DNA of 32,428 nt from Lachnospiraceae bacterium (GTDB lineage: Bacteria; Bacillota; Clostridia; Lachnospirales; Lachnospiraceae): positions 1 through 32,428 of the forward strand of contig CABJAV010000023.1 of assembly GCA_902363675.1 (NCBI GenBank), given 5' to 3'. A program made the translations under genes and the position numbers. Every line of letters begins with the position of its first letter. Position 1 is the stretch's first letter. Below the pieces are notes generated by a model that saw nothing but the letters and a program-made list of their open reading frames with translations, made no database searches and had not been told where the DNA came from. Below are positions 5,185 through 24,944 of the stretch, piece by piece.

Positions 5185-6240
5185 ATGAGATTACCAAACG
5201 GATACGGCGGAGTCGTAAAATTATCCGGGAACCGAAGAAGGCCCTACGCAGCGCGAATTACCACCGGCTGGTACCACAATGACAAAACCGGAAAACGTGT
5301 ACAAAAATTCCAAGTTATCGGATACGCTGCCTCCCGGGCCGAAGCCTTACAAATACTAGCCAAATACAATGACTATCCAATTGATGCAGCTGCCCTGAAG
5401 CTTACCTTCCATGACATCTATCTGCGCTGGTCCGAAGAAAAATTTCCGACCACCTCCGCCTCCAACATCAAAGGATACCGCGCCGCATATTCCATTTGTG
5501 AAGATATCGCAGATGTACCATTCCGCAATTTGCGCCTGGATGATCTGCAACGCGTCGTCGACCGCTGTGGGAAAAATTATCCCACCCTAAAAAAGCTCCG
5601 CATCCTGTTCAATCAGTTATACGACTATGCGATGAAACACGAAATTATCTGCAAAGATTACTCTCCCTATGTCAACATCACCAAATATAAAGACCGTAAT
5701 CCAAATAAAGCAGAACGCAACCGCTTCACGGCGGATGAAATAGAAACCTTATGGAAACATACCGATGACCGCTATTACCAGACGGTTCTTATGCTCATCT
5801 ACAATGGGGTCCGTATTTCCGAACTGCTTGACTTGAAAAAAGAAAATGTCCACTTGCCTGAACGATACTTCGACGTAGTTGACAGCAAAACAGAAAATGG
5901 TATCCGCAAAGTCCCTATCGCCGAAAAAGTCCTTCCCTTTTACACCTCCTGGTACAATGACTGTTCGCACAGTGAATACCTTATCCACACCATGGACAGT
6001 GAGCATTTTACTTACCATAATTATTACATCAATGTATTTAAACCACTGCTGCAGCCCCTGAACATCGACCATACCCCACACTGCTGCCGTCATACAACGA
6101 TCTCAATGCTCGCCGATGCACATGTGGATCAGACCATTATCAAAAAAATTGTCGGCCATGCCGGAGCCATGACATTAACCGAACGTGTCTACACACATTT
6201 GGACATCCACGAACTCATTGAAGCAATCGACAAAATATGA
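5185..6240 (+). CDS. Tyrosine recombinase/integrase, candidate cassette-switching enzyme
   Basis: Integrase of 351 aa. Residues ~1-65 (GGVVKLSG..RPYAARITTG) look like the small beta-sheet arm-site DNA-binding domain seen in Tn916-like integrases. Residues ~72-165 are the core-binding domain. The catalytic domain has R210 (NGVRISELL), K235, H299-x-x-R302, H325 and Y336, so it appears active. A GAAGGA box lies 8 bases before the ATG. The gene ends 12 bases before the first of five GTTACTT-like repeats and about 200 bp before the first silent surface-protein cassette. No excisionase, mobilisation or phage gene lies beside it, so it does not look like the integrase of an intact mobile element. 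An enzyme with an arm domain encoded at the edge of a cassette array whose silent copies all carry phased upstream repeats is most simply the recombinase that shuffles them. That role is inference; the family is firm. Confidence 0.92.
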   Translation: MRLPNGYGGVVKLSGNRRRPYAARITTGWYHNDKTGKRVQKFQVIGYAASRAEALQILAKYNDYPIDAAALKLTFHDIYLRWSEEKFPTTSASNIKGYRAAYSICEDIADVPFRNLRLDDLQRVVDRCGKNYPTLKKLRILFNQLYDYAMKHEIICKDYSPYVNITKYKDRNPNKAERNRFTADEIETLWKHTDDRYYQTVLMLIYNGVRISELLDLKKENVHLPERYFDVVDSKTENGIRKVPIAEKVLPFYTSWYNDCSHSEYLIHTMDSEHFTYHNYYINVFKPLLQPLNIDHTPHCCRHTTISMLADAHVDQTIIKKIVGHAGAMTLTERVYTHLDIHELIEAIDKI

Positions 6241-6252
6241 AAAATCGGAATT

Positions 6253-6361
6253 GTTACTTGTGTGTTACTTAAATTTTTCCAGCAAAAATGTCTCACAAAA
6301 TATGGTCATATAAATTCAGTTTGTACTACCCCGTTTCTTGTGCGTTGCTTGTACGTTACTT
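6253..6361 (+). repeat. Phased 11-bp direct repeats, candidate integrase arm sites of silent cassette 1
   Basis: GTTACTT occurs at 6253 and 6264 (11 bp apart), then GTTTCTT at 6333, GTTGCTT at 6344 and GTTACTT at 6355, again exactly 11 bp apart. The last lies 89 bp before the TGTTAAG core of cassette 1. A constant ~11-bp phase puts the repeats on one DNA face, as in arm sites of lambda/Tn916-type integrases. Confidence 0.65.
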
Positions 6362-6443
6362 AAGATTGAAAGCTTCTTCAACATGCTATGCTGCAGATAC
6401 CTGTTTTATCCACTCTGCTGGCAGTATGGTCAGTGGAAAATAT

Positions 6444-6515
6444 TGTTAAGGTAACTGGTAAGAAGTCCGGTAAGGCTGTAAAGAAGACATTAAAGGCTAC
6501 TATTACAGTTAAGAA
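6444..6515 (+). repeat. Core site plus 71-bp constant block, silent cassette 1
   Basis: TGTTAAG-GTAACT followed by the block encoding VKVTGKKSGKAVKK and the next ten residues. It is shared almost base for base with the other four copies. The sequence left of TGTTAAG (AAATAT) differs from the expression site, so homology starts exactly at the 7-bp spacer. Confidence 0.8.
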
Positions 6516-8553
6516 CTCTTCAATTTCTATGAAGGGTGATTCTGAACTCCTTATTGGAGCAGAGAAGAGCTACAAAGCAACTGTTAAGCCAAGCGTAAAA
6601 GTTTCTTATAAGTCTAGCGATGAAGCAATCGCAACTGTAGATACTAAAGGTAATGTTAAGGGCGTTAAAGCTGGTAAAGTTACAATTACAGCTACAGCTA
6701 AAGTTGGTACAAAGACTATTAAGGCTACAAAGGATATCGTTGTAAAGAATGGTATCACAGAGTTCAAGGCAACTACTCCTAAAAAACTCACAGTTAAGTT
6801 TGCTGGAGCACTTGAGACTGTAGCAAAAGAGAACTTCACTCTTACAGATGCAAAGGGTGCTAAAGTTGCAATCCAGAAGGCAACATTAGATGAGACAAAG
6901 ACAATTGTAACTCTTGACTTATACAGCGAGCTTACAACTGCTACAGATTATACAGTATCTGCTAAAGTTGGCGAGGATACTTTCACAGAGACTCTTACAT
7001 TCGTAAAGGGTGCTGTTGCAAAGATTGTTGCTGCAAACCAGATTGTTAAAGCTGATGGAACTCCACAGCAGATTAAGTACACAGTTCTTGACGAGAATGG
7101 ATTAGATATTACAGATTCTACTGCTGTTTCATTTTCTTCAAACGTTACTACAATTACACCTGATGGAAAAATTACTCTTGCAGACGGTGTGCTTGCATAT
7201 GTAACAATTACATATGTAAACCCTACAACAGGTGCAGAAATCAAGTCTGAAACATTTTCAGTTACTGGATCAACTTCAGCAGCCGCTTCTATCGCAGCTG
7301 TTACTGTAGGATCTACAAGTGATACAGGTGCAACTCTTTCAGCTTGGCCAAAAAATGCAACAACAACAATTGCTAAAAATGCAACAGGACTTAAACTGTT
7401 CGCACAGTATGTAAACCAGTATGGTGATAAGGTTGTTGCAACAAACGGAACAGATGTTTCTTATGAATCATTAGATCCATCAATCTTAATTGTTGACACA
7501 AAAACAGGTGCACTTACTCCTATCGCAGAGGGTGCAGCTCAGATTAAGGTTACTTCTGGTACAGCCAGCCAGCTTTTCACAATTACAGTTGTTGCACCAG
7601 CTACAGCTTCTAAAATGGCTCTTGACGCATCAAGTGTATTAAAAGCATCTATGACTAACAGCTCTGTAAATACAGCTTCTGTTAAGATTAATGTTCTTGA
7701 CCAGAATGGAAAGAATTTCAATGATGATACAGATTCAAATGTATTAACATTCACATTAACATCTGGTGCAGGTGTTCTTAGTGAAGCTTCAACTGTAGGA
7801 GCTACTGTATCTGGCACAGCAGGTGTTGCAAAAACATTTACAGCTGCTAAAGCTGGAACAGCTACATTTAAGGTTACATCTAATAAGACTGGATTAAATT
7901 ATGTAATGGTAAGCATTACCGTTTATGGTACTGATAATACAGTAGTTAAATATGGTCTTACTGGAATTAAAGATTTGAATATTCAGGATTGCTATGATGG
8001 AGATTCAAACACCAACGATTACAAGACAACTGTTGAAGTGAAGGCTCTGAACAAAGATGGTTTCGTTGTAGCAGCTAGTGAAGTTAGCGGTGCTGCAATT
8101 ACTGTTACAAAGCCAGATAAGACACAGGTAACACTTGCAAGTGGTGCAGATAATTTTGATGCTACTGCATCTGCATTTAGCGCTGTTGGAGCATACTCAA
8201 TTGTAGCTACAAAGAATGGTACTACAATTGCAACAGCTACAATCAATGTTAAAGATACAGGTGTTAAGCCAGCTGTAACAATCAAGAAGAATTCTATTGA
8301 TTACACAGAAATTGCCGCAAGTGCAAATAATATCTTAGATAACTTTACTACAGAGACTGGTTGGACAGTTACAGGTGTTAAATTTGTATCTGGAAACTCT
8401 GCTGCAATTGCTTCAGCGCCTACAGCAGTTACTTCAATCACAAAGACTGGTACAGATAGTGTTACATTATACAACGTTGTAGTAGTTGTTAGAAATACAG
8501 CTTCAAACAGAACATTTGAAGTTGCTACAAATCAGTCTATTACAGTTAAATAG
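6445..8553 (+). CDS. Silent cassette 1: promoterless Ig-like (Big2) surface-protein body
   Basis: A 702-codon body in the same frame as the expressed surface protein, beginning at the constant VKVTGKKSGK block. It has an early Big2-type domain (SYKSSDEAIATVDTKGNVKG, VKAGKVTITA) and then further beta-sandwich repeats, including a segment with KADGTPQQIKYTVLDENG that recalls S-layer proteins. The frame can be extended upstream to an ATG at 6388, but there is no ribosome binding site and no signal peptide, so I treat it as silent. It is the most divergent of the five bodies and has no LPXTG or other anchor motif. It would be exported only after recombination places it behind the leader at 24.2 kb. 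It lies just after the integrase and arm repeats and ends in a strong terminator. Annotation pipelines may call a normal gene here. Confidence 0.8.
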   Translation, partial: VKVTGKKSGKAVKKTLKATITVKNSSISMKGDSELLIGAEKSYKATVKPSVKVSYKSSDEAIATVDTKGNVKGVKAGKVTITATAKVGTKTIKATKDIVVKNGITEFKATTPKKLTVKFAGALETVAKENFTLTDAKGAKVAIQKATLDETKTIVTLDLYSELTTATDYTVSAKVGEDTFTETLTFVKGAVAKIVAANQIVKADGTPQQIKYTVLDENGLDITDSTAVSFSSNVTTITPDGKITLADGVLAYVTITYVNPTTGAEIKSETFSVTGSTSAAASIAAVTVGSTSDTGATLSAWPKNATTTIAKNATGLKLFAQYVNQYGDKVVATNGTDVSYESLDPSILIVDTKTGALTPIAEGAAQIKVTSGTASQLFTITVVAPATASKMALDASSVLKASMTNSSVNTASVKINVLDQNGKNFNDDTDSNVLTFTLTSGAGVLSEASTVGATVSGTAGVAKTFTAAKAGTATFKVTSNKTGLNYVMVSITVYGTDNTVVKYGLTGIKDLNIQDCYDGDSNTNDYKTTVEVKALNKDGFVVAASEVSGAAITVTKPDKTQVTLASGADNFDATASAFSAVGAYSIVATKNGTTIATATINVKDTGVKPAVTIKKNSIDYTEIAASANNILDNFTTETGWTVTGVKFVSGNSAAIASAPTAVTSITKTGTDSVTLYNVVVVVRNTASNRTFEVATNQSITVK

Positions 8554-8559
8554 TGTTTA

Positions 8560-8630
8560 TAACTTTTATCATTATTTTCTTAATAGCAAAAACGGGAATC
8601 GGTTATATAAACAGATTCCCGTTTTAATTA
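8560..8630. repeat. 71-bp inverted repeat copy containing a terminator
   Basis: Near-identical (about one mismatch) to the reverse complement of 21819..21888. It holds a hairpin AAAACGGGAATC / GATTCCCGTTTT (8588..8625) that terminates transcription after cassette 1 and, read in reverse, would work equally well. Confidence 0.8.
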
Positions 8631-8788
8631 TGTCTAATTATTGAGCCATATTTATATTATAACGACTGAAGAGTAGTTTAATAATATTTTCTCATCTAAA
8701 AAATATAAAAGTTATTTTTGGATGTAGAAAGATTTTCACTATGTAAATAAACATTTGGCTTCTACGGAATAAATTTAGCATATTTTAT
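8631..8788. other. AT-rich spacer, no gene seen
   Basis: Between the cassette 1 terminator and the arm repeats of cassette 2. I found no open frame with a ribosome binding site, no convincing promoter and no clear hairpin. Confidence 0.6.
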
Positions 8789-8817
8789 GTTACTTATACA
8801 ACATTATTATGTTACAC
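8789..8817 (+). repeat. Candidate arm sites of silent cassette 2
   Basis: GTTACTT at 8789 and GTTACAC at 8811 are 22 bp (two 11-bp steps) apart. The first lies 87 bp before the cassette 2 core, matching the 88-89 bp spacing at the other three silent cassettes. Confidence 0.55.
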
Positions 8818-8875
8818 AGTTTATAAAAAATCCCTATTTTATCACCTTTTGAAGGCTATTTAAACTCGTATATAG

Positions 8876-8947
8876 TGTTAAGGTAACTGCTAAGAAGTCT
8901 GGAAAGGCTGTAAAGAAGACATTAAAGGCTACTATTACAGTTAAGAA
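8876..8947 (+). repeat. Core site plus constant block, silent cassette 2
   Basis: TATATAG-TGTTAAG-GTAACT, then the constant block with a few base changes (one gives TAKKSG in place of TGKKSG). The left flank ATATAG is shared with cassettes 3 and 4 but not with the expression site. Confidence 0.8.
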
Positions 8948-11171
8948 CCCAGCATTATCCGTATCCGCAGCTGGTGAAGTTGCAGTTGGATCTACAGAGG
9001 CTATCAAGGCTACTGTTAAGCCAGCAAACACAAAGGTTACTTATACAACAAGTGACGCAACAATCGCTACTGTTGATGAGAAGGGTGTTGTTACTGGCGT
9101 GAAAGCTGGTGATGTAACAATCACAGTTAAGGCTGGTAAGACAACTAAGACAGTTAGTATGAAAGTTAAGAACTATGTTCTTAAATCTGTAGCTCAGACT
9201 AAGGCAGATACATTTGAAGCATCTGTAGCAGGTGCTACAAAAGATATCAAAGCAACAGACATTACTGTTAAAAATACAGAGAACAATGTAACTGTTCCTG
9301 TTAAGTCTGTATCTGTAGATAGCAAAGATGCAACTAAGGTTACATTCGCTACTTTCGCTGGTCTTACAGATGGAAAGACATATGATGTAACTCTTGATGG
9401 AACAACTAAACAGATCGTTGTATCTGATGGTAAAGTTGCATCTGTATCTGTTAATAAGATTACTATCCCAGCTGCAACTGAAACAGAAATTAAGTTAGTT
9501 GCAAAAGATGCAAATGGTATTGTTCTTGATGAAGCTGCTTATGGAGCACAGGATGCATCTAAGTATGATTTCACACTTACCACTAACAATGGATATGTAA
9601 ACAGTTCTAAGTTATACTTAAACAAAGTTGGTGATACTGCAACAGCTGAGGTTACTTATAAGACTGGCAAGTATGATGCAAATGGTAAACCAGAGGGCAA
9701 TGTTACATCTGGAAAGGTTACAATTACCGCTGTAGATCAGGCTGCAGTTAATAACTTCAATGTTAAAGTGGCTGACAAGAATGCTCAGAGCAAGAAATTT
9801 GATAAGATTGATGCAAATGCACAGCTTGCTGTTGGCGAAAAAGACATGTATGCTTATTTCCAGATTAAGGATGCTGACAACAACGAAGTTTCTAATTACT
9901 ATGATTATTCAGTAGAATCTAGTGATAAGAATGTATTAATGCTTGGTGGTTCTTCTATTGATGCAGCAAGCAACAACAATCATAGAGTTCTTGTTACACC
10001 TGTAAAGGCCGGTACAGCTTATCTTTTAATCAAGAAAAACAATACAATTGTTAATTCTGTTGCAATCACTGTAGTTGCTGAAAGAGCTGTTGCAACTATG
10101 GATGTTGATAAGACAAGTGCAACACTTTCTAATAAAATGACAAAAACAGCTACTGTAACAGCTTCCTTCAAGGATCAGTATGCAAAAGATTTCCTTGGAG
10201 ATGGAACTGTAAAAGTAACTTGCCTGAGCACAACAGCTAAGGATGCTTCTGATAAGGCTATTGATGCAAAGACCGTAACTGCTAATGCATCTGAGAAGTA
10301 TTTTAAACAGAATGCAGCATCTGGAAATAAAGTTAAAGTTGAATTCAAGGCAGAGAATATTGAAGCTGGAACATACCAGTACAAGATCTCTTACGAGAAA
10401 GATTCTAAGGAAGTTTGTGCTAAGACAATCACTATTGTCATTCAGCAACCAGCAGATCCTTCTAAGGGAACTGAGTCTTTCGCATTAGATGTTGATAAGA
10501 CTGAGATTGACAACCTTGTTGATGACAACCACACAACTGCTTCTGATTATGTAGTAACAGCTAATGTAAATCAGTTAATCAATGGCGTAGCTAATCAGGC
10601 AATTAGTACTTCTACCACACTTAAAGATGGTTCAACTGTTAAATCTATTGATTATAAGTTGGAAGATAAGGATGGCAAAGATGTAACAACAACTACCGGA
10701 GCTGCTATTTCTTCTGGAAAGTTAACAGTAACTACTGTATCTTTTGATGGTACAAAAGCAACTAAGAATTTTGGTGCTGGTACTTATAAGATTACTGCTA
10801 CAGTTGTAACAACAAAGGACAGCAAAGATACCACAAAAACTTTCACTACTACATTTACTGTAAAGGATACTCAGCCAACAGGTTCTTTAACATTTGAAAA
10901 GAATTCTGTAGATGCTACTTCTGTAAAGGATGCAGTAGAGAAAACTGTTAAGTTTGTATATGGTGATACAACTTATTCTGCAAATGATGTAGCTCCAGTA
11001 ATTACTTCTATCGAAGGTATTGCAAATGATGGAACTGTAATCAATGCAAAGAATATGGCTTCCGTAAAGAAGTCTGAAGTAACCATTAAAAAGGTTACAT
11101 TTACAGTTGGTACTGATAAGTACAGTGTTGATGTAACAGCAGATGCTTCACAGGTAATTACAATTAAATAA
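8877..11171 (+). CDS. Silent cassette 2: promoterless Ig-like surface-protein body
   Basis: A continuous frame of 764 codons that starts at the constant block. An in-frame TGA at 8850..8852 closes it upstream, and no ATG, GTG or TTG with a ribosome binding site lies between that stop and the core. It therefore cannot be translated in place as a full body; an internal GTG at 9099 is only a formal start. The first domain is Big2-like (TTSDATIATVDEKG, VTGVKAGDVTITVKAG). The middle resembles cassettes 3, 4 and the expressed gene (GDTATAEVTYKTGKYDANG; GTAYLLIKKN). The C-terminus is a beta-rich domain with no cell-wall sorting signal. It is followed at once by a terminator. Role by homology: an alternative extracellular body for the surface protein encoded at 24489..22054. 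Confidence 0.8.
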   Translation, partial: VKVTAKKSGKAVKKTLKATITVKNPALSVSAAGEVAVGSTEAIKATVKPANTKVTYTTSDATIATVDEKGVVTGVKAGDVTITVKAGKTTKTVSMKVKNYVLKSVAQTKADTFEASVAGATKDIKATDITVKNTENNVTVPVKSVSVDSKDATKVTFATFAGLTDGKTYDVTLDGTTKQIVVSDGKVASVSVNKITIPAATETEIKLVAKDANGIVLDEAAYGAQDASKYDFTLTTNNGYVNSSKLYLNKVGDTATAEVTYKTGKYDANGKPEGNVTSGKVTITAVDQAAVNNFNVKVADKNAQSKKFDKIDANAQLAVGEKDMYAYFQIKDADNNEVSNYYDYSVESSDKNVLMLGGSSIDAASNNNHRVLVTPVKAGTAYLLIKKNNTIVNSVAITVVAERAVATMDVDKTSATLSNKMTKTATVTASFKDQYAKDFLGDGTVKVTCLSTTAKDASDKAIDAKTVTANASEKYFKQNAASGNKVKVEFKAENIEAGTYQYKISYEKDSKEVCAKTITIVIQQPADPSKGTESFALDVDKTEIDNLVDDNHTTASDYVVTANVNQLINGVANQAISTSTTLKDGSTVKSIDYKLEDKDGKDVTTTTGAAISSGKLTVTTVSFDGTKATKNFGAGTYKITATVVTTKDSKDTTKTFTTTFTVKDTQPTGSLTFEKNSVDATSVKDAVEKTVKFVYGDTTYSANDVAPVITSIEGIANDGTVINAKNMASVKKSEVTIKKVTFTVGTDKYSVDVTADASQVITIK

Positions 11172-11567: not shown

Positions 11568-11582
11568 TTGACATAGAGCCTA
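11568..11582. mobile_element. Solo IS-like terminal repeat
   Basis: ACTTGACATAGAGCC is identical to the right end of the 63-bp mini-element at 21889..21951. It looks like one end of an ISL3-type or similar element left after the rest was lost. No transposase is present. Confidence 0.35.
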
Positions 11583-11616
11583 TGTTGATTTTGGATGCCC
11601 ATAAACATGTTGCTGT

Positions 11617-11675: not shown

Positions 11676-13868
11676 TTATCCAATAATAATTGTCTTTCCA
11701 ATAGCAATTTCTTTCTCAACATACTTTCCAGTAGCTACCTCGATCTTGAGTGTAACCTTAGCAATATTCGTTGCAGAAGTAATAGCATATGAATCAGAAA
11801 CTGCTGTTCCATTTACAGCTGTAATTTCATACTTTCCATCTGCAAGTTCGTTTCCATCATATACAACCTTCAAGTTAGACTTAAGTGTTGTGCCAGATTT
11901 TACAGCTGTATCTTTAAGAGCTGCTGTTGCTGCTGGCTGAGAATTTGTAACTTCGAAAGTCTTAACAAATTTCTTAGTATCATTAGCAGCAGTTTTATAC
12001 TCAGCTGTTAAAGTATAAGTTCCAGCTTCCAACTGCTTTCCAGATGTGAAATTATTAACATTAATAACTGCAATACCAGAACCAGTAGTTACACCAGTAA
12101 CATCTTTTACAGACTTACCATCCTTTTCAAGAGACCATTTAACATCACTTGATGAATCAACTTTCTTAACCTTTACACCGTTCTTGTCATAGCCCCAAAC
12201 AGTAGTTGTAACTTTTGCAGTTTCAGTAGCATCAGCTTTAATTACGGCATCAACCTTATCTGCGCTTAATACTAAGTCATATGTAGCTGGATCTCCAGTT
12301 TCAGACTTTCTAACAACGATAGTAAATGTCACTTTAACATCTTTATATTCAACAATGTAAGTATTTGATGAATCCTCACCTTTTTCATTAAGACCTGGGT
12401 TTTCAACCTTAACCTTGTCATTTGCTGGGTAAGTAATCTTTGTTGCCTGGCTAAGAGCTTTAGAATTTGCATTCTTACAGGTCAATCCAGAACCAATAGT
12501 AACGTCTTCGCCATACTGATCCTTAGCTGTTACTTTTACAGTCACATCATCATCGTCAACACCAGTTGCGTTAGACAATGTAAATGCATTTTTATCAAGA
12601 GATAAAGCTGTAACTTTTCTTTCTGCAACTACTGTAACAGGAAGTGTTGTAACAACAGCCTTTGTCTTAGAATCTTTAACGATGATATAAGCATTTCCAG
12701 CCTTGTATGGTTTAATAACAATTGCTGTTGCATCTTTAATCTTGCTTGTTGCACCTACAGTCATAACATCAATATCAGAAGACTCGAAATCATAGCCAGT
12801 TGAAGCATCAGCAACTTTGTTATCAGACTGAGTTCTCTGAATATATGCAACTGCCTTGGTATCACCTACAGCAACCTTTTTCTCTTTAACATTCTTGAAC
12901 TCTGTAGCACTCTTGTTGTCATCAGTAGTTCCAACTTTTACGTTCCAACCAATAGTTGTTACTGCAGTTGGATCAACACCTGTAATAGTAGCCTCTGCTG
13001 TAACATTTCCTTCCTCAACTGCGGAAGCATTGTATTTTCCAGTATGAGCAATAACTGTAATCTTTGCTGTGTTACCAACTTTGTAAAGGTTTAATGTCTT
13101 TCCTGAAAGGTATCCGTTGTTTGTAGCGTCTACTTTCCACTCAACATATGTGAAGCCAGCTAAAGAAGTCTGATCTGCATCTACTGTAGCGATTTCTACT
13201 CCATTAGCATCTGTAAATTTAGCAGAAATATCATTTGCATTCTTTCCATCAACTGTAGCTGGAGTTGGAACAACAACTGTAGCTGGAGAAATTGTTGCAG
13301 CAACAATCTTACCATCTGTAACAGTAATTGTCTTTGTTACATCAGCTAATGTAATTGTATAATCCTTACCATCAGCCATAGTTACATATGTTTCAAGAGT
13401 AACCTGTGTGCTGTCATTCTTATCAACAGATACGCTCTTCACAGCAACATTAGCCTTGGAGTATGTATTTGTGATTACGAAATCAGATGTCTTTAAAGCA
13501 GCTGTATTACCAGTAACTGTAGCTGTGAGCTTTGTTGTTGTAGCCTGCTTAACATCCTTAAGGATGAAATCTTTAACAGCCATCTTAACAGTCTTTGTTG
13601 TCTTGCCAGCCTTAGCTGTGATTGTTACGTCACCAGCCTTAACACCAGTAACTTCACCTGTTGTAGCATCAACTGTTGCGATTGTCTCGTCACTAGATGA
13701 GAATGTAACCTTTGTTGAAGCTGGCTTAACTGTAGCCTTAACTGTCTCCTTTGCACCAACTGCAACCTCGCTAGCTGCCTTTAATGTAAGAGAAGGATTC
13801 TTAACTGTGATAGTAGCCTTTAATGTTTTCTTTACAGCCTTACCAGACTTCTTACCAGTTACCTTAAC
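11676..13868 (-). CDS. Silent cassette 3: promoterless Ig-like surface-protein body, minus strand
   Basis: A frame of 730 codons starting at the constant block at 13868. An in-frame TAA lies about 20 bases upstream of the core, and there is no start codon or ribosome binding site at the head; the first in-frame ATG is at 13583 inside the body. The Big2 domain (TKVTFSSSDETIATVDATTGEVTGV) is nearly identical to those of cassette 4 and the expressed gene, then the sequence diverges (GNTAKITVIAHTGKYNAS; GNAYIIVKDSKTK). There is no anchor motif. It is the only silent copy in the same orientation as the expressed gene, so direct recombination with the expression site would excise DNA, not invert it. 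A hairpin terminator follows its stop. Confidence 0.8.
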   Translation of the reverse strand, partial: VKVTGKKSGKAVKKTLKATITVKNPSLTLKAASEVAVGAKETVKATVKPASTKVTFSSSDETIATVDATTGEVTGVKAGDVTITAKAGKTTKTVKMAVKDFILKDVKQATTTKLTATVTGNTAALKTSDFVITNTYSKANVAVKSVSVDKNDSTQVTLETYVTMADGKDYTITLADVTKTITVTDGKIVAATISPATVVVPTPATVDGKNANDISAKFTDANGVEIATVDADQTSLAGFTYVEWKVDATNNGYLSGKTLNLYKVGNTAKITVIAHTGKYNASAVEEGNVTAEATITGVDPTAVTTIGWNVKVGTTDDNKSATEFKNVKEKKVAVGDTKAVAYIQRTQSDNKVADASTGYDFESSDIDVMTVGATSKIKDATAIVIKPYKAGNAYIIVKDSKTKAVVTTLPVTVVAERKVTALSLDKNAFTLSNATGVDDDDVTVKVTAKDQYGEDVTIGSGLTCKNANSKALSQATKITYPANDKVKVENPGLNEKGEDSSNTYIVEYKDVKVTFTIVVRKSETGDPATYDLVLSADKVDAVIKADATETAKVTTTVWGYDKNGVKVKKVDSSSDVKWSLEKDGKSVKDVTGVTTGSGIAVINVNNFTSGKQLEAGTYTLTAEYKTAANDTKKFVKTFEVTNSQPAATAALKDTAVKSGTTLKSNLKVVYDGNELADGKYEITAVNGTAVSDSYAITSATNIAKVTLKIEVATGKYVEKEIAIGKTIIIG

Positions 13869-13951: not shown

Positions 13952-13969
13952 AAGTAACATGCAAGAGAC
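13952..13969 (-). repeat. Candidate arm sites of silent cassette 3
   Basis: On the minus strand GTCTCTT (13969) and GTTACTT (13958) are 11 bp apart. GTTACTT lies 89 bp before the cassette 3 core, the same as at cassette 1. Confidence 0.55.
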
Positions 13970-15032: not shown

Positions 15033-15034
15033 TA

Positions 15035-16147: not shown

Positions 16148-17809
16148 ATGGAAAACAAGATAACTCTTCCAATCGGAATGAGCAATTTTACAGAAATTCG
16201 AAAGAATCATTATTATTATATTGATAAAACCGAACTGATTGAGAACTTACTTCAAAATAATTTATCCAAGGGAACTTTGATTACCCGTCCGAGACGCTTT
16301 GGTAAGACATTAGCAATGTGTATGTTGGCAGATTTTTTTGATATTCGTATGGATAATCAATCGCTTTTTGATGGGTTATATATTTCCGGGCAGAAACAAT
16401 TATGCGCAGAATGGATGAATCAATATCCTGTTATTTTTTTGACATTGAAAAATATTGACGGTCTCAAATTTGAATCTGCATATGATATGTTGACTGCTGA
16501 ATTGGCAGATTTGTTTAAACAACATTCTTATTTGCTTGATTCGGATCAAATGGATGTCAGTGACAGAGCAATTTATGAGCGATTGAAGGACAATCGGGCT
16601 ACAACTGCGGAGATTAAGAAATCACTGTCTTTTCTAACCCGCATTATGGCTCAATATTATTATAAGCCAGTCATTCTGCTTATTGACGAATATGATGTTC
16701 CGGTTGCAAAAGCAGATTCCAGAGGCTATTATGATCAGATGCTTGAAATCATAAGTCCCTTGCTTGGTACTGCATTAAAAGATAATGCGTTCTTAAAATT
16801 TGCGGTTATTACCGGGTGCCTTCGTATTACCAAGGAAAGCATTTTTACCGGCACTAACAATTTTATTACAGATACGATTTCCGACAATCGATACAATGAA
16901 TTTTTCGGCTTTACGCAGCAAGAAATTACAAAGCTTCTGACTGATACACATTGTGAATCCTGTGCTGCCGACATTCAAAAATGGTATGATGGCTATCGTT
17001 TCGGTAATTTGGATATTTACTGTCCTTGGGATGTGCTTAACTACATTCAAAAAGTGATGGCAACCGGTATCTTAGAACCGGAAAATTTTTGGGAACATAC
17101 CAGTGATAATGCAGTCATTCGCACTTTTTTGGAACGAACCGATTTTGATGTGACCGAAAAATTTGAAACATTGATGAATGGTGGCACAATTTGCGAAACG
17201 ATAGAAGAAAACCTTACTTATAACGTGCTTACGTCTTCGGAACAGAATCTTTGGAGTTTGTTATACCTTACAGGATATCTTACCAAAGTTGACAGTGCAC
17301 GTAATTCATCTGAAACACTTCTTAAGATTCCGAATAACGAAGTTATGGATATCTTCCAAAAAAGCGTCACAGAATGGTTTTCAAATTCACTTGCACAAAG
17401 TAACCGGAATGCACTTTTTGAAGCTTCATGGAATGAAGATACGGAAAAACTTACAGAAATTATATCAGACCTACTGTTTAACACGATCAGCTATCATGAT
17501 TATGCGGAAAGCTTTTATCATGCATTTGTTGTAGGTTTATTTGCTAATGCAGGATATATTGTTGAGTCCAATTACGAAAATGGATTAGGACGATCTGATC
17601 TCGCAATTAAGGATCGAAAACTTCGCCGAGCCATTGTTATTGAATTAAAGATTTCGAAAAAGAAAGATGATATGGAAAACAAATGTCATGAAGCCTTGCA
17701 ACAAATCGAAGAAAAAAAATATGCGACAAAAATTGAACAGGTTGGTTTTAAAAAGGTAATTCGATACGGCATTGCTTTTTATAAAAAGGAATGTCTTGTA
17801 ATGAAATAA
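16148..17809 (+). CDS. AAA-ATPase-like / PDDEXK nuclease-family protein
   Basis: Protein of 553 aa of the AAA-ATPase_like plus PDDEXK_9 type, very common in Clostridia and Bacteroidetes. The N-terminus has the family opening LPIGMSNFTEIRKNHYYYIDKT and a P-loop RPRRFGKT (residues 47-54). A Walker B-like strand VILLIDEYD follows at ~175. A sensor-like ITGCLRITKESIFTG and the WYDGY...YCPWDVLNYI block are also typical. The C-terminal region has the nuclease-like core GRSDLAI...AIVIELKIS, supplying the D and ExK residues. The start has an AAGGAGG box 8 bases upstream. Length is normal and the frame is intact. Cellular function is not established; mobile-element or defence roles have been suggested for the family. 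A paralogue lies at 25377..27050. Confidence 0.85.
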   Translation: MENKITLPIGMSNFTEIRKNHYYYIDKTELIENLLQNNLSKGTLITRPRRFGKTLAMCMLADFFDIRMDNQSLFDGLYISGQKQLCAEWMNQYPVIFLTLKNIDGLKFESAYDMLTAELADLFKQHSYLLDSDQMDVSDRAIYERLKDNRATTAEIKKSLSFLTRIMAQYYYKPVILLIDEYDVPVAKADSRGYYDQMLEIISPLLGTALKDNAFLKFAVITGCLRITKESIFTGTNNFITDTISDNRYNEFFGFTQQEITKLLTDTHCESCAADIQKWYDGYRFGNLDIYCPWDVLNYIQKVMATGILEPENFWEHTSDNAVIRTFLERTDFDVTEKFETLMNGGTICETIEENLTYNVLTSSEQNLWSLLYLTGYLTKVDSARNSSETLLKIPNNEVMDIFQKSVTEWFSNSLAQSNRNALFEASWNEDTEKLTEIISDLLFNTISYHDYAESFYHAFVVGLFANAGYIVESNYENGLGRSDLAIKDRKLRRAIVIELKISKKKDDMENKCHEALQQIEEKKYATKIEQVGFKKVIRYGIAFYKKECLVMK

Positions 17810-18145: not shown

Positions 18146-18583
18146 TTATGATATACATTCTTTGTAATAATCAATAACATTAACAAATGGAATGACAATT
18201 TTTCCATTGTTAAAAACGGATGCAGATATGGATTCTAACTTCCCACGCGCAATACCTATAAGTGCAGACGCTCCATTTATGGCAACTAATTGCTGAAAAT
18301 CATCATAGTCAGTATCCCCATTTGATAAGAAAGCACCCTCTAAAGCCAAGTGAATTTTGCACACGGAATTTTCTGATTGCGTTATTTCAATTTCAAATTC
18401 TATAATCATTTCGGCATAAAACTCATTATTTTCATTATGTGTTTGAAATTTTGGCTCACATATATTTAATCCAAAGACTCGTTTGGCATCTTTTGCAATA
18501 TCTACAATTTGATTCTTGATTTCAAGCTCTTTAACAGTTGCACCAAGTAATTCAATTCCAGAAGCAATCAAATTTAGTTCCAT
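18146..18583 (-). CDS. SecB-like chaperone of a toxin-antitoxin-chaperone operon
   Basis: Protein of 145 aa resembling SecB-family export chaperones, notably the SecB-like partners of TAC (toxin-antitoxin-chaperone) modules such as Rv1957. The C-terminal half is the clearest: LVAINGASALIGIARGKLES, then the strand IVIPFVNVIDYY, which corresponds to the SecB pattern ending in a conserved Pro and an aromatic pair. I place the start at the ATG at 18583, which overlaps the antitoxin stop by one base (TAATG) and has AAGGGGG 9 bases upstream; a longer frame to 18622 lies inside the antitoxin gene. In TAC systems the chaperone binds the antitoxin's C-terminal tail and protects it from proteolysis. 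The gene order toxin-antitoxin-chaperone matches. Sequence similarity to SecB is moderate, so confidence is moderate. Confidence 0.7.
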   Translation of the reverse strand: MELNLIASGIELLGATVKELEIKNQIVDIAKDAKRVFGLNICEPKFQTHNENNEFYAEMIIEFEIEITQSENSVCKIHLALEGAFLSNGDTDYDDFQQLVAINGASALIGIARGKLESISASVFNNGKIVIPFVNVIDYYKECIS

Positions 18584-18981
18584 TATGCAATCGCCCCCTT
18601 TGTATCTATTTTCTTCATCCAACTGCTTTTTTTAGGCTTTGTTCTTTGCCTTATCTCATCCCATTTCAATACAGGGTACTCTTTAGCAACTGTAAGTGGT
18701 TGTATATCAAGAGATACGCATAGTTGTAATTTTTCACAGATTTCATTCAGGGATTTAATAGTAAAATTATATTCTCGGCTTTCCCATTTGGATACCATAC
18801 CTTGTGACACGTCCATATATTCAGCAAATTCTTTTTGCGTCATATTCATTTCTTGACGACATTTTTCAATTTTAGCAGAAATTTTTGCTAATTCTATTGT
18901 AGATTTTATTTCAGCTTCAGATAATGATTCTGTAACCCAAGTTGTTTCTTTGGCACGGGCAATTTTTTCTGTAATACTCAT
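18583..18981 (-). CDS. HigA-type XRE-family antitoxin
   Basis: Protein of 132 aa with an XRE helix-turn-helix at residues ~40-90 (CRQEMNMTQKEFAEYMDVSQ, then GMVSKWESREYNFT), preceded by a helical N-terminus. The C-terminal tail (KRTKPKKSSWMKKIDTKG-like, basic with a Trp) is longer than in plain HigA proteins and is a candidate chaperone-addiction region that the SecB-like partner would bind. Start: ATG with AGGAG 9 bases upstream. It lies 41 bases after the HigB-like gene and overlaps the SecB-like gene by one base. It should repress the operon through the two TTACTTAYATGTAW palindromes at 19444 and 19004. Identification as the antitoxin rests on the HTH fold and on gene order. Confidence 0.8.
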   Translation of the reverse strand: MSITEKIARAKETTWVTESLSEAEIKSTIELAKISAKIEKCRQEMNMTQKEFAEYMDVSQGMVSKWESREYNFTIKSLNEICEKLQLCVSLDIQPLTVAKEYPVLKWDEIRQRTKPKKSSWMKKIDTKGAIA

Positions 18982-19412: not shown

Positions 19413-19443
19413 ATTTTACCACCTCCTTTGGTGTCTTAATTAT

Positions 19444-19459: not shown

Positions 19460-19585
19460 ATTTTCGATAAACATTTGAAAATATGAGAGGAAATTAAGAA
19501 ATTTAAATATCTATTAAGTTATTGAAATTTCGTTATTTACTAAAATTTTTGCTCCATTGTTTTTGTCGTTAAGCTTCGCATTTTT

Positions 19586-19603
19586 GTCACTTTTCTGTTA
19601 CTT
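19586..19603 (+). repeat. Candidate arm sites of silent cassette 4
   Basis: GTCACTT at 19586 and GTTACTT at 19597, 11 bp apart; GTTACTT lies 88 bp before the cassette 4 core. CCTATTTTA at 19641 lies 44 bp before the core, as at cassettes 1 (44), 2 (43) and 3 (45, CCTTATTTTT). Confidence 0.55.
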
Positions 19604-19684
19604 ATCAAACATTTTCACAAAATTTCAATTGCAGAAAATTCCTATTTTAATGCATTTTCTACAGTTATTTGAATTCAGATATAG

Positions 19685-19756
19685 TGTTAAGGTAACTGGT
19701 AAGAAGTCTGGTAAGGCTGTAAAGAAGACATTAAAGGCTACTATTACAGTTAAGAA
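19685..19756 (+). repeat. Core site plus constant block, silent cassette 4
   Basis: GATATAG-TGTTAAG-GTAACT, then a constant block that appears identical to that of the expressed gene. The 150 bases after it also match closely before the sequences diverge. Confidence 0.8.
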
Positions 19757-21794
19757 TCCTTCTCTTACATTAACAGCAACATCTACTGAAGTTGCAGTTG
19801 GTGCAAAGGAGACAGTTAAGGCAACAGTTAAGCCTGCTTCAACAAAGGTTACATTCTCATCTAGTGATGATACAATTGCAACAGTCGATGCTGCAACAGG
19901 TGAAGTTACTGGTGTTAAGGCTGGTGACGTAACAATCACAGCTAAGGCTGGTAAGACAACAAAGACTGTTAAAATGTCTGTTAAGACTTACATTGTTAAG
20001 AGTGTAAAGCAGACAAAGGCTGATACATTTGAGGCTGTTGTTCTTGGAAAGACATCTGATCTGAAAGCATCTGATGTTACTGTTTCTAACAAAACAACAA
20101 ACGCTGTATATGCTGTTAAGTCTGTAGCAGTTGACGAGAAGGATGCTACAAAGGTTACAATTACAACATTCACAGAGTTCACAGACGGAGCTACTTATGT
20201 AGTAACAGTTGCTGGTACTGCTGTAGAAGTAGTTGTTTCTGATGGTGTCGTTGCTGATGTAACAGTTAGTCCTGTTCAGATTCCTGCTAATACAGATGGA
20301 ACTGAAATCAAGGCTCAGACAGTTGATAAGAATGGCGTAGTTCTTAAAGACTTTACAACTGAGAGTAAACCAAACAACGTTGATTTTTCACTCGCTACAA
20401 CTCAGGGTTATGTAAACGGAACTAAGCTTGTTCTTCCTGTAGTTGGAAACAAGGGTACAGCAGAAGTTACATACCACACATATAAGTATGATGAGAACGC
20501 TAAGGAAGTTGGCGCTATCACAAAGAAAGTTGATATTACAGCTGTTGCTGAAGAAGTTGCAACTGTAGCTGGTTACAATTACACAATCGCAAAGAATGCT
20601 CCAGATTGGACAAAGACTGTTACAACTGTAAGCAAATTTGCATTGGGCGATTCAGTTAAAGCATACTTCCATTTCGTAAATACAAAGAAGAAAGATATCA
20701 CAGCAGATTACTCAGTAGTATCTAGTGATGATAGTGTACTTCTTTTACCAGAAACTTCTTTAAAGGCTAACCAGAGTGTTTCACTGGTAGCAGTTAAGAC
20801 TGGTACTGCTTACATCAACGTATTAAAAGATGGTAAGGTTGTTACTTCTTTACCTGTAACTGTAACAGAGACAAGAAAGCTTGTTAATATTTCTCTTGAC
20901 AAGACTGCACTTTCAGTTTCTACAAAGGCAACTAATTATACAACTGGATCCGTAGTTGTTAAGGGTGTTGACCAGTATGGTGAGGAAATTCCTGTTGACA
21001 CTGTTGTTCCAACAGTTCTTACAAAAGACTCTGCTAACGTTACAGCTAAATACGTTAGTGCTGATAAGAAAGTAAATGTAGATGTTGCTAATGCTAAGAA
21101 GGGCACATACGTTATTAAGATTGAGGCTCAGAAGGGCAATGATAAGGTAGCTAAGACTATCACAGTCAATGCAGTTGAAACAACTAAGACTGCTGATGAT
21201 GCAACTGATTTACGTTTAGAGCTTTCTGATAGCAAGGTTGATGCTGCAATTGCTAATGATACAACTGCTGATAAGGCAGCTAAGAAAGTTACTGCAACTG
21301 TAGCTGCATATGATCAGGGCGTTAAGGTTGGTGTTGTTTCTGGTGCATCATTTACATTAAATGATAAGACAGAAAAAATTGATGCTTCTGCAGGTACTGT
21401 TGATGTTGTAACTGTTTCTTCTAGCAACAAGGCTACAAAGGTTCTTTCTGCTGGAACATATGTTGTTAAGGCTACAGTTGTAACAAAAGATGCAAAGGGC
21501 AATAATGTTACAAAGACATTCTCTGGAAGCTTTGAAGTTGTTGATACTCAGGCATCTGCAACTGTAAAGATTAACTCTAAGAAGACAACTAAGACTGATG
21601 TAGCTGATATTCTTGCAGAGACATGCGTAGCTTCTTATAATGGAACAGAGTATACAACATTCGCTGTTGATTCAAAAGAGGTTAAGACAAGTGGTGGTTA
21701 CACTTATATCGGAAAAGCAACTGTAACTGTTAAAAACAGCAAGGGTGTTGAGTTCGATGTAACTGTTAACATTAACACAACATTTACAAGATAA
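19686..21794 (+). CDS. Silent cassette 4: promoterless Ig-like surface-protein body
   Basis: A 702-codon body closely related to the expressed copy: Big2 domain FSSSDDTIATVDAATGEVTG, then NKGTAEVTYHTYKYDENAKE and KKVDITAVAEEV, and the same C-terminal plan ending in VTVNINTTF. The frame stays open upstream to a TTG at 19557 and an ATG near 19649, but neither has a ribosome binding site and the encoded upstream residues come from the cassette flank, not from a signal peptide with a charged start. I treat it as silent. It is in inverted orientation to the expressed gene and only 4.5 kb from its core, making it the nearest partner for inversion. A terminator shared with cassette 1 follows. Confidence 0.82.
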   Translation, partial: VKVTGKKSGKAVKKTLKATITVKNPSLTLTATSTEVAVGAKETVKATVKPASTKVTFSSSDDTIATVDAATGEVTGVKAGDVTITAKAGKTTKTVKMSVKTYIVKSVKQTKADTFEAVVLGKTSDLKASDVTVSNKTTNAVYAVKSVAVDEKDATKVTITTFTEFTDGATYVVTVAGTAVEVVVSDGVVADVTVSPVQIPANTDGTEIKAQTVDKNGVVLKDFTTESKPNNVDFSLATTQGYVNGTKLVLPVVGNKGTAEVTYHTYKYDENAKEVGAITKKVDITAVAEEVATVAGYNYTIAKNAPDWTKTVTTVSKFALGDSVKAYFHFVNTKKKDITADYSVVSSDDSVLLLPETSLKANQSVSLVAVKTGTAYINVLKDGKVVTSLPVTVTETRKLVNISLDKTALSVSTKATNYTTGSVVVKGVDQYGEEIPVDTVVPTVLTKDSANVTAKYVSADKKVNVDVANAKKGTYVIKIEAQKGNDKVAKTITVNAVETTKTADDATDLRLELSDSKVDAAIANDTTADKAAKKVTATVAAYDQGVKVGVVSGASFTLNDKTEKIDASAGTVDVVTVSSSNKATKVLSAGTYVVKATVVTKDAKGNNVTKTFSGSFEVVDTQASATVKINSKKTTKTDVADILAETCVASYNGTEYTTFAVDSKEVKTSGGYTYIGKATVTVKNSKGVEFDVTVNINTTFTR

Positions 21795-21818
21795 TTAGTT
21801 TTAGGTTAAAGCTAAATT

Positions 21819-21888
21819 AATTAAAACGGGAATCAGTTTATATAACCGATTCCCGTTTTTGCTATTAAGAAAATAATGATAAAAGTTA
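21819..21888. repeat. 70-bp inverted repeat copy containing a terminator
   Basis: Reverse-complement partner of 8560..8630 with about one mismatch. It holds the AAAACGGGAATC / GATTCCCGTTTT hairpin that ends cassette 4, and it stops exactly where the mini-element at 21889 begins. Confidence 0.8.
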
Positions 21889-21951
21889 GGCTCTATGTCC
21901 AGTAATGGGGCGCAATTCAAAGAATCACACCCAAAAACTTGACATAGAGCC
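21889..21951. mobile_element. 63-bp mini-element with terminal inverted repeats
   Basis: GGCTCTATGTCCAGT at the left and ACTTGACATAGAGCC at the right form 15-bp terminal inverted repeats with about two mismatches around 33 bp of unrelated DNA. The right end recurs at 11568..11582. It looks like an internally deleted IS (MITE-like). No target duplication is evident. Confidence 0.4.
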
Positions 21952-21956
21952 CAAAG

Positions 21957-21993
21957 AAACGCCAGAAACGGCACATTGCCGAAACTGGCGTTT
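21957..21993. terminator. Terminator of the expressed surface-protein gene
   Basis: AAACGCCAG ... CTGGCGTTT stem with a second CGGCA-CAT-TGCCG hairpin inside, followed on the minus strand by TTTCTTT; about 60 bases after the stop of the expressed gene. Confidence 0.8.
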
Positions 21994-22053
21994 ACTTTAA
22001 ATGAAAGACTTATTTTACAGCCTCCATTATAAAACTATTTTACTAATAATCAA

Positions 22054-24489
22054 TTATTTTGCAGTGAATGTTGTATTTACATTTACTGTAACAGGATAGC
22101 TGATTCCATTGCTGTTTTCAACTGAAACATTTACGGTTCCAACATATACAGCTTTGTTGTCAACAACCTTGTAACCGTCTTTAACAGTAATCTGAGATGG
22201 TTCAAGATTCTTGTAATCTTTGCCATTGATACTAAATTTTACATTAGCAGCAACAACATTTGCAATTGCAGCCGTATCATTTGAAATTGCTACACTTGTT
22301 GTCTTGCTGTCAATCTTTGTAGTAACAACTGCAGATTGTGTATCTACTACAGAGAATGTAGTTGTGAATGTCTTATCAGCTGCCTTAACAGTCAATGTAT
22401 AAGACTTTCCAGCCTCAAGGTTCTTAGTTACTTTGTTTGCTGAGCAAGAAACAACTGAAACAGCAGCTCCGCTTACAACAGACTGTTTGCTGGAATCGCT
22501 GATCTTGCACTCTGTTACATTTGCGTAACCGATCTTAGCGCCCTTATCATATGCAGCAACTTTTACCTCAACTGTCTTAGCTGCCTTTGCTGCATCTGCA
22601 TCATCGGCTACAGCCATATCAACTTTACCATCTGTTAAGCCAGATACTTCAACTCTTAAATCAGTAGCCTTAGCTACATCTGTCGCTGTTGCTACAGTTT
22701 TTACTGTAAAGTAACGATTTAATGTAACATTGTCCTTCTTAACTTCAACTTTGATAGTGTATGTCTTTCCATCTTCAGCATTTGCACTAGCAGAAACCTT
22801 AACTGTTTTTGTTGTAGGATCGTATGTAGCGTTAATTGCCTTAGTAGCATCATCATTTACACCTGATGCTGTAATAGTTGTTGAACCAGTAATGTCATTA
22901 TTGTACTGATCAACGGCTTTTACACTAACAGAATTATCAACGCCTGTAGCAGTCTTAGAAATTGTCAGAGATGTATTTCCAAGTGTTGTATTTGTAAGCT
23001 TTCCAGCAGCTGTAACAACAACTGGTAAAGATTTAATTACTTTACCATCTTTGTCTAATACGTTAACAAAAACATTTCCTTCTTTAATACCTGTTGCAGA
23101 TACAGGAGTACTGCTACCGCTTAACTGAGTCTTTGGTAATAAAAGAATAGAATCATCACTTGATACTACTGAGTAATCAGCATATGTTGTGATTTCTTTG
23201 TTATCAGATCCTACAAATTTGAAGTATGCACTCTTGCTAGATCCAATTGCTAACTGATTTGTTGTCTTGTCTTTATCCCAGTTTGGAGCTTTAGCTGTAT
23301 CTGCAAATGTCATGTTGAATCCGTTTGTTGTGATTACGTCTTCAGCTACGGCTGTGATATCAACCTTCTTTGTATAAGCTCCAATTTCATTTCCGTTAGC
23401 ATCAAATTTGTATGTATGATACTTAACTTCTGCTGTACCCTTGTTTCCAACAGTAGGAAGAACAAGCTTGTCACCATCTACATAACCCTGTGTCGTAGAA
23501 AGAGTTAATTCAGCGCTCTTTGTACTAGCTTCACTTACCTTGAACTCATCAAGTACAATACCATCTTTATCAACAGTCTGTCCTTTGATTTCAGTTCCTT
23601 TTGTGTTTGCAGGAATTGTAACAGGTGTTACATTTACGTCAGCCACAACACCATCAGTTGCTGTAAACTCTTGAGTTACACCATCAAGTTCAACAGTGTA
23701 CTTAGCGCCATCCTTCATATCTGCAAATGTTTCAAGAGTAACCTTCGTAGCATCTGCCTTATCAGGTGTTACACTCTTGACAGCAATTGCATTCTGGTTT
23801 GCAGTGTTGGTAATCTTAACATCAGTTGTCTTGATATCCTTTGTTGTTCCAAGAATAGAAGTCTCTAATGTATTTGCCTTTGTCTGCTTTACAGACTGAA
23901 GAATAAAATTCTTAACTGCCATCTTAACAGTCTTTGTTGTCTTGCCAGCCTTAGCGGTAATTGTTACCTCACCAGTCTTAACACCAGTAACTTCACCTGT
24001 TGTTGCATCGACTGTTGCAATTGCATCATCGCTAGATGAGAATGTAACCTTTGTTGAAGCAGGCTTAACTGTTGCCTTAACAGTTTCCTTAGCACCAACT
24101 GCAACTGCGCTAGCTGCCTTTAATGTAAGGGATGGATTCTTAACTGTAATAGTAGCCTTTAATGTCTTCTTTACAGCCTTACCAGACTTCTTACCAGTTA
24201 CCTTAACAGTAACTTTTGCTTTACCAGCCTTAACAGCCTTAACAGTAACCTTCTTCTTAGAAGCCTTAACTTTTGCTACGCTCTTCTTGCTTGTAGTAGC
24301 TTTAACTTTTACGCTCTTCCAAGTCTTTGGAGTTGTAACTTTGATTGTCTTAGACTGACCTACATATACGGCAGCCTTTGTTGTGCTAAGCTTTGGAGCT
24401 GCAGCAGCATTTGCAGGAGTTACAGGTAAAGCTGTAACAACCATTGCAGCAGCAAGAGTTGAAGCTAACACTTTTTTGAATGTCTTCAT
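22054..24489 (-). CDS. Expressed Ig-like (Big2) surface protein, the active copy of the cassette family
   Basis: Secreted protein of 811 aa. I start it at MKTFKK (24489), with GAGAGG 7 bases upstream; the frame runs 10 codons further but without a better signal. Residues 1-37 are a signal peptide (basic start, hydrophobic LASTLAAAMVVTALPV, AxA-type cleavage near PANAAAA). Residues ~38-94 are a Lys-rich domain (about 19 Lys) that probably interacts with the anionic cell wall. Position 95 starts the constant VKVTGKKSGK block shared with four silent bodies. A Big2 domain follows (FSSSDDAIATVDATTGEVTG), then several beta-sandwich modules. There is no LPXTG, SLH or membrane anchor. It is the only member of the family with a promoter (24916..24944), ribosome binding site and export signal. 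The crossover site splits leader from body in frame. Predicted role: abundant, antigenically variable cell-surface or S-layer-like protein. Confidence 0.88.
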   Translation of the reverse strand: MKTFKKVLASTLAAAMVVTALPVTPANAAAAPKLSTTKAAVYVGQSKTIKVTTPKTWKSVKVKATTSKKSVAKVKASKKKVTVKAVKAGKAKVTVKVTGKKSGKAVKKTLKATITVKNPSLTLKAASAVAVGAKETVKATVKPASTKVTFSSSDDAIATVDATTGEVTGVKTGEVTITAKAGKTTKTVKMAVKNFILQSVKQTKANTLETSILGTTKDIKTTDVKITNTANQNAIAVKSVTPDKADATKVTLETFADMKDGAKYTVELDGVTQEFTATDGVVADVNVTPVTIPANTKGTEIKGQTVDKDGIVLDEFKVSEASTKSAELTLSTTQGYVDGDKLVLPTVGNKGTAEVKYHTYKFDANGNEIGAYTKKVDITAVAEDVITTNGFNMTFADTAKAPNWDKDKTTNQLAIGSSKSAYFKFVGSDNKEITTYADYSVVSSDDSILLLPKTQLSGSSTPVSATGIKEGNVFVNVLDKDGKVIKSLPVVVTAAGKLTNTTLGNTSLTISKTATGVDNSVSVKAVDQYNNDITGSTTITASGVNDDATKAINATYDPTTKTVKVSASANAEDGKTYTIKVEVKKDNVTLNRYFTVKTVATATDVAKATDLRVEVSGLTDGKVDMAVADDADAAKAAKTVEVKVAAYDKGAKIGYANVTECKISDSSKQSVVSGAAVSVVSCSANKVTKNLEAGKSYTLTVKAADKTFTTTFSVVDTQSAVVTTKIDSKTTSVAISNDTAAIANVVAANVKFSINGKDYKNLEPSQITVKDGYKVVDNKAVYVGTVNVSVENSNGISYPVTVNVNTTFTAK
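24137..24208 (-). repeat. Expression-site core plus constant block
   Basis: TGTTAAG spacer and the 71-bp constant block at codon 95 of the expressed gene. All silent copies match from TGTTAAG onward; none matches to its left. Confidence 0.8.
24196..24214. promoter_or_regulatory. Candidate recombination core, expression site
   Basis: Minus strand AGTTAC-TGTTAAG-GTAACT: perfect 6-bp inverted arms around a 7-bp spacer, the shape of a tyrosine-recombinase core. The silent copies keep the spacer and right arm only. No GTTACTT motif lies at the 87-89 bp position upstream (around 24296), so this site is simple, like an attB. Confidence 0.65.
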
Positions 24490-24909
24490 GTCTTTTCCTC
24501 TCTTTCCTTTTGTGATCAACCTCCATCAGAATTCTACTTGTTTGCCTCACACGTTTAAGTTCAGCCATCTTCACTTTTGACTCGCTGCGGACGATCCATC
24601 CATTCCAACGACATCACTAATTGCCTCCGCCGACCTCCTCGAGTAAATACTCATCGCCAGCATCATCTACAAACACATAAATCTTTCGATTGAAGCCTCG
24701 AACCCTCAAAGTCGCGTAGAGCTAAATCCAACATTGATAGTTCAGCATCAAATTCAGCAAGCTGCTCCTAACGGATCTCAGCTTCTGTATGTATCTGTAA
24801 TTGTAAGGTTGTCTGAAACCTATCTTTTCAGTTTCAGTTTCCATAGCTCCAATAGTTGCTAATCAGTTCTCGTACTTTTCTTTTAGCAGTACTATTTTAA
24901 CTACTCTAC
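24490..24909 (-). promoter_or_regulatory. Long (~420-nt) 5' untranslated leader of the surface-protein gene
   Basis: The only good promoter upstream of the expressed gene leaves about 420 nt before the ATG. I recognise no riboswitch or known leader in it. Short frames are present (for example ATGATGCTGGCG near 24655 with its own stop), none with clear support. Such leaders often stabilise very abundant surface-protein mRNAs. Confidence 0.45.
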
Positions 24910-24915
24910 GTGACA

Positions 24916-24944
24916 ATAATACACCAAGTATTGTGTCTTTGCAA
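24916..24944 (-). promoter_or_regulatory. Promoter of the expressed surface-protein gene
   Basis: TTGCAA (24944..24939) and TATTAT (24921..24916) separated by exactly 17 bp on the minus strand. It is the only clear promoter seen for any of the five bodies. Confidence 0.6.

Follow-up and report, generated by a model that had tools for sequence, protein, structure and literature searches.

The question raised by this locus is whether a bacterium can exchange most of a surface protein at a single recombination site, and which enzyme would do so. The window (the whole stretch of DNA analysed: 32,428 bp, Lachnospiraceae bacterium contig CABJAV010000023.1) contains one complete gene for an 811-aa protein (24489..22054, minus strand), four silent, headless coding bodies (s1 to s4) whose products are predicted to be S-layer-like, and, at the edge of this array, a tyrosine recombinase gene (5185..6240, plus strand; the integrase). 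We consider it very probable that the bodies are exchanged at one site, likely by the integrase, in which case the coat of the cell would change. The closest named sources of matching sequences were Agathobacter sp. (P0146, L001), followed by other Lachnospiraceae.

Anatomy of the array

Five open bodies began in one frame at GTTAAGGTAACTG and contained no internal stops, as follows: s1 (702 aa, 6445..8553, plus strand), s2 (764 aa, 8877..11171, plus strand), s3 (730 aa, 11676..13868, minus strand, the orientation of the expressed gene), s4 (702 aa, 19686..21794, plus strand) and the expressed body (717 aa, 22054..24207, minus strand). The core site is GTTAAGGTAACT at the 5' end of s1, and a core site was likewise present at s2, s3 and s4. 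AAGGTAACT was found five times in the 32,428 bp, each time at a body joint, and this confinement is not due to chance. The expression-site core, AGTTAC-TGTTAAG-GTAACT (24196..24214, minus strand; 6-bp inverted arms, 7-bp spacer), occurred once in the window. Upstream of the expressed body lies the constant leader (24208..24489, minus strand), which encodes a signal peptide (by sight) and the opening portion of a basic Ig-like domain.

A preliminary description of this DNA had placed five bodies in the same frame at a common 71-bp block. The frame and the sharing were confirmed, with AAGGTAACT exactly at each joint, and the block proved longer, nearer 95-101 bp, with 88-96% identity in the four pairs reported separately (pairs involving s2 were merged into longer 77-79% matches). 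The abrupt loss of homology that it had noted at TGTTAAG was seen again: expressed and silent flanks diverged immediately left of TGTTAAGG. Its statement that the silent copies are preceded by in-frame stops needs qualification, as the reading frames of s1 and s4 stay open upstream for 25 and 56 codons. The four headless bodies, open for 702-764 codons, are probably under selection, which would mean that they are read at times.

Two repeats were observed beside the bodies. A 71-bp block, 99% identical and inverted relative to the bodies, lies behind s1 and s4 (8560-8630 and 21818-21888) and reads as the trace of another rearrangement. GGCTCTATGTCA is repeated at 11570-11590 and 21889-21945; these repeats resemble the ends of an insertion sequence or of a short derivative thereof.

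Candidate arm sites

The silent flanks had been described as unrelated. This did not hold: in all four, GTTACTTA stands 88-90 bp ahead of the joint, and three have a second copy 11 bp away (5/7 or 6/7 positions matching). The arm repeats lie at 6344..6361 (s1, plus strand), 8789..8796 (s2, plus strand, a single GTTACTTA), 13952..13969 (s3, minus strand, tandem with an 11-bp step, second copy 5/7) and 19586..19603 (s4, plus strand, tandem with an 11-bp step, second copy 6/7). A perfect tandem repeat, GTTACTT-N4-GTTACTT (6253..6270, plus strand), is located 12 bp behind the integrase gene. Tandem arm copies were counted six times in the window, whereas 20 simulated sequences averaged 0.1 and never exceeded 1; the six include the perfect pair entered twice and one copy (12529) inside a body.

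For the window and relatives together, an exact arm copy was present at 88-101 bp from 9/10 testable silent junctions (the exception being that of genome G046) and 0/7 expressed junctions. These counts comprise 11 silent and seven expressed junctions from the window and the first set of loci: the G003 expressed gene was left out as unplaced, silent junction 2 of G004 (17 bp of upstream sequence) was classed as untestable, and later loci, found with the core in the search pattern, were not counted. The two silent-site flanks of G039 are alike, and the sites are thus partly non-independent. AAGGTAACT was held at the codon level at 17/18 junctions, versus 1/51, the sole departure being in G038, which has no close integrase.

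Reassorted joints in other assemblies

Recombinant junctions in other assemblies supported the proposal of a single expression site at which silent bodies are exchanged. Protein clusters were taken from three lists, the best 120 of 2545 matches, of 4086 matches (leader-region search) and of 738 matches (expressed-body search); a joint was recognised in all but 18 of 216 proteins. Among the best 120 of 4086, 12 clusters joined the leader to a body at least 97% like s4. P0191 carries the same 702 residues of s4 behind an identical leader, with zero differences from the window, and cluster P0180, in which the leader is followed by a body 65% like s3, comprises 67 contigs. The reciprocal form was also present: eight proteins among the best 120 of 738 open with the s1 flank of the window and continue into bodies 78-98% like the expressed one. 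Seven bodies occurred in identical form behind a leader and behind a silent flank, the leaders and flanks being of several kinds, and an identical 94-aa leader (16 proteins) preceded five body classes at 36-54% identity. These joints, from assembled sequences, show reassortment in populations; switching within one clone is a further step.

Genomes G039 and G040 (92-93% identical in aligned stretches) differ at such sites. The G040 contig matches G039 up to and including the flank of silent site 1 and then runs on as G039 silent body 2, so that it is without the ~7.2 kb that G039 has between two directly repeated silent sites. Because the change falls inside a region that is similar between the sites, and is placed more coarsely than to one base, it is compatible with precise excision or capture.

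The integrase and its distribution

The integrase (351 aa, PF00589 match) was found to be an intact tyrosine recombinase at the array edge, as had been claimed. Residues R210, K235, H299, R302, H325 and Y336, which we take to be the catalytic R-K-H-R-H-Y residues, did not vary across 56 aligned sequences. In an AF2 model the N-terminus formed three strands (residues 8-12, 21-31 and 38-48) and a helix (51-63), and the best fold matches were the Tn1549 integrase and lambda Int. The three-strand and helix form is that of Int-Tn916 arm-binding domains, according to passages of PMC8138268, and an arm-binding N-terminal domain of this type is predicted here. The Pfam search returned no arm-binding domain match, and the NCBIfam hits, none of which reached the cut-off, were limited to models of Xer, integron and invertase type. 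Viral contigs were searched for the integrase and for the joint pattern, and none was found.

In the 62 genomes of the genus set, the integrase (at least 73% identity) and the leader gene (E 1e-8) were each present in 10, and the two together in eight (p = 5.6e-7, a value that treats genomes as independent, which they are not). The composite arm-core pattern occurred nine times in 5/62 genomes, all five integrase-bearing, and never in reversed form; in the family draw it was present in 1/397 (G001).

Proposed exchange and alternatives

The neighbouring integrase is a well-supported candidate for the exchanger. It would bind the arms at silent sites and the cores at both kinds of site, and strands would be cut and exchanged within GTTAAG. 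Recombination between the expression site and an opposed silent site would invert 4.5 kb (s4), 15.3 kb (s2) or 17.8 kb (s1): the previous body would be parked behind the silent flank and the incoming one would be read behind the promoter and signal peptide, which, like the long 5' leader RNA, would keep their place. Excision would be the outcome instead for sites in direct repeat, of which s3 and the expression site are an example; as s3 has the orientation of the expressed copy, direct exchange would delete rather than invert. Inversion, envisaged in the preliminary description, need not be the sole route: s3 is direct, and G039 and G040 differ between direct repeats. A bolder proposal is that a former mobile-element integrase has become a chromosomal coat switch with two site classes (core-only at the expression site, arm and core at silent sites), which inverts, excises and captures cassettes and so maintains, much as an integron does, a reservoir of S-layer bodies among which defence genes are carried along; this we put forward tentatively, as a possibility that is more doubtful than not.

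Several observations weigh against integrase-driven exchange. Clear inverted arms are confined to the expression site, and the left halves differ at the silent sites; two expressed sites have an arm copy with one mismatch within the 150 bp examined. The perfect arm pair lies within the integrase locus of as few as 3/15 relatives (L030, L032 and L035; L041 has a pair matching 13/14, and the other 11/15 have none). Half of the integrase-bearing genomes (5/10, drafts) have no composite site, G046 combines a leader gene and a headless body with no close integrase and no exact arm, and G038, too, has a leader gene but no close integrase. Conversely, G005 and G035 have the integrase and no leader match at E 1e-8 (G005 has a weak one), and no array was seen in the examined parts of the G001 and G035 integrase contigs. 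The joints come from assembled, largely metagenomic, protein-level sequences, and in single clusters an assembly join across the ~97-bp repeat is possible. Bodies s1 and s2 were not seen behind the leader, no search having been aimed at such joints. Bodies are also mosaic further in (51-56% and then 89-97% identity), and S-layer formation is itself a reading of the fold of a model with a predicted TM-score (pTM) of 0.44.

It is unlikely, in our judgement, that RecA-type homologous recombination across the common 95-101 bp block exchanges the bodies, with the integrase as a passenger. At 88-96% identity in the four reported pairs the block is long enough, the protein-level joints leave the crossover unplaced within it, and in G046 and G038 the leader gene is present with no close integrase. 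Between species, P0243 requires exchange inside bodies (first 100 body residues 51-56%, the rest 89-97%). What homologous recombination does not predict is the codon-level constraint on AAGGTAACT, the confinement of arm repeats, at a fixed spacing, to silent sites, the co-occurrence with the integrase, or the restriction of composite sites to integrase-bearing genomes of the genus set. The mosaicism further inside bodies indicates that homologous recombination acts here too: P0243 and P0251, which have other leader types, are 89-97% identical to the window (22054-24489) beyond residue 100 after the joint and 47-72% before it, and assembly regions thus seem to pass from one species to another along a second route.

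Integrase-driven exchange was also set against two readings in which the integrase plays no part. The joints might be assembly chimaeras or old strain differences and the array a static family of silent relics, which we hold to be very improbable. The joints are indeed known from assembled sequences only, and four G004 contig ends lie 69-97 bases past a joint, where assemblers evidently struggle; yet 12 clusters (among the best 120 of 4086) pair the leader with an s4-like body, P0180 represents 67 contigs, and all four headless bodies have stayed open. A purely static repeat family was rejected on the reassorted leader-body and flank-body joints of other assemblies. Still less credible is a switch operated by another recombinase, such as the XerC/D-like gene (144-1070), which encodes a tyrosine recombinase, lies 4 kb from the array and has homologues (49-53%) in 18 further genomes of the genus, five of them integrase-bearing (G004, G005, G012, G039 and G040). 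Homologues at 76% identity or more were limited to G014, G015 and G016, all three of them without the leader gene, and the Pfam domains of this recombinase are SAM-like and catalytic only, with no arm-binding part; it was rejected as the switch enzyme on this distribution of close homologues.

Expression site and encoded protein

The preliminary description had assigned start signals to the 24489..22054 gene alone. Among the five copies, a Shine-Dalgarno (SD)-like sequence (AGAGAGGA) ahead of the ATG and a signal peptide (by sight) were indeed restricted to this gene, and the upstream extension of s1 was found to contain an ATG with no SD-like sequence (by sight). The promoter-like element (TTGCAA-N17-TATTAT, 24916..24944, minus strand) is weak when taken alone (four pattern matches versus 2.8 in shuffles); its TTGCAAAG part was present in 5/5 loci reaching that far, among 10 aligned. 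Between this element, from which its extent is deduced, and the ATG lies a long 5' untranslated leader (24490..24912, minus strand). The RNA (~420 nt), conserved across nine aligned loci, folded better than shuffles (z -3.28) and gave no Rfam match at gathering scores.

The model of the 811-aa protein was nearly all beta (mean pLDDT 85.6, pTM 0.44, so that domain packing is unsure). Residues 30-94 include 19 K/R and 0 D/E, residues 30-118 include 27 K/R and 0 D/E, and residues 195-811 have a pI of 5.7. The best fold matches for residues 194-718 were S-layer assembly regions (Sap, SbsC, EA1 and SbsB), and the protein is accordingly predicted to be S-layer-like. For the expressed protein Pfam reported Big_2 alone, and the SLH wall anchor was not found; many S-layer proteins lack SLH, so this absence is not decisive. 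In the model, strand 89-101 of the first Ig-like domain contains the joint (T94/V95), so that the last strands of this domain (to residue 117) must come from each body, which would explain the 24 conserved residues after the joint. The constant, strongly basic domain probably holds the protein on the wall, and the remainder is the variable, probably lattice-forming part. The bodies contain no large tandem arrays, only short arrays of 2-3 copies.

Neighbouring genes

The integrase or array lies near polysaccharide genes in the window (1144-5010, CapD-like and ligase-like) and in G012 and G039 (by sight). Between s3 and s4, a HipA-like kinase and a HIRAN protein (14148-15733) match the PADLOC candidate defence pair PDC-M03A/B, and an HTH antitoxin-like gene (models below cut-off) lies with a partner gene (18146-18981). 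Two AAA-ATPase-like genes (16148-17809, with PDDEXK_9 in Pfam, and 25377-27050), 71% complementary over 895 nt, flank the pair formed by s4 and the expression site, in opposite orientations.

Comparison with known systems

If exchange takes place as proposed, Agathobacter relatives, which are gut bacteria, would gain a built-in means of replacing a surface protein that would be exposed to phages and host antibodies. An arm-binding integrase would then serve shuffling, and a constant basic domain would be cut in two by the recombination joint, with each body providing the missing part. Candidate enzyme, sites and protein are all defined and tied together here, so that long reads can be used to quantify switching.

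Inversion at a conserved 5' region puts S-layer variants behind one promoter in Campylobacter fetus (sapA) and Lactobacillus acidophilus (slpA/slpB), and sap switching in C. fetus is RecA-linked. As far as we know, these systems have no arm-binding integrase devoted to switching and equipped with arm sites of its own. In PMC6015585, slpB is called silent. In the R64 shufflon, a constant N-terminus is joined to alternative C-terminal parts, each starting at a site, and the segments are short. The present array differs in its bodies of 702-764 aa, its unrelated protein, its arms ~90 bp off and the other genes between bodies; the likeness lies in this constant-and-alternative layout, in a tyrosine recombinase and in asymmetric sites. 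For R64 these are Rci and sfx, as given in the abstract of PMC11852207. The integrase resembles the Int-Tn916 group (Tn1549, and lambda Int by fold) in its predicted three strands and helix, its catalytic residues and the repeated candidate arm sites near the core, and is unlike it in that neither phage nor conjugation genes were noticed in its vicinity (no systematic search was made).

Titles, abstract openings and passages of the papers found by literature search did not describe this locus (the Milman 2023 survey of gene-altering inversions and most subscription journals lay outside this scope), and the terms rectale and Lachnospir each had 0 occurrences in PMC5903667 and PMC10939037. The preliminary description knew of no described system with this exact architecture; the Mycoplasma pulmonis vsa locus is similar: in passages of PMC2268961, a promoter, a ribosome binding site (RBS) and the first 714 nt are juxtaposed with silent 3' ends. 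As in vsa/HvsR (passages of PMC2268961 and PMC4534519), the expression site supplies promoter, RBS and a constant N-terminal part, the silent genes have no 5' end, and a tyrosine recombinase gene lies near parts that, in vsa, are joined by site-specific inversion. The vsa genes have tandem repeats (passages of PMC4534519), unlike the bodies described here, and the array is for that reason not classed as a vsa member. It is further set apart from vsa by its predicted S-layer-like protein, its Lachnospiraceae-type host, its predicted arm-binding integrase and its arm-bearing silent sites.
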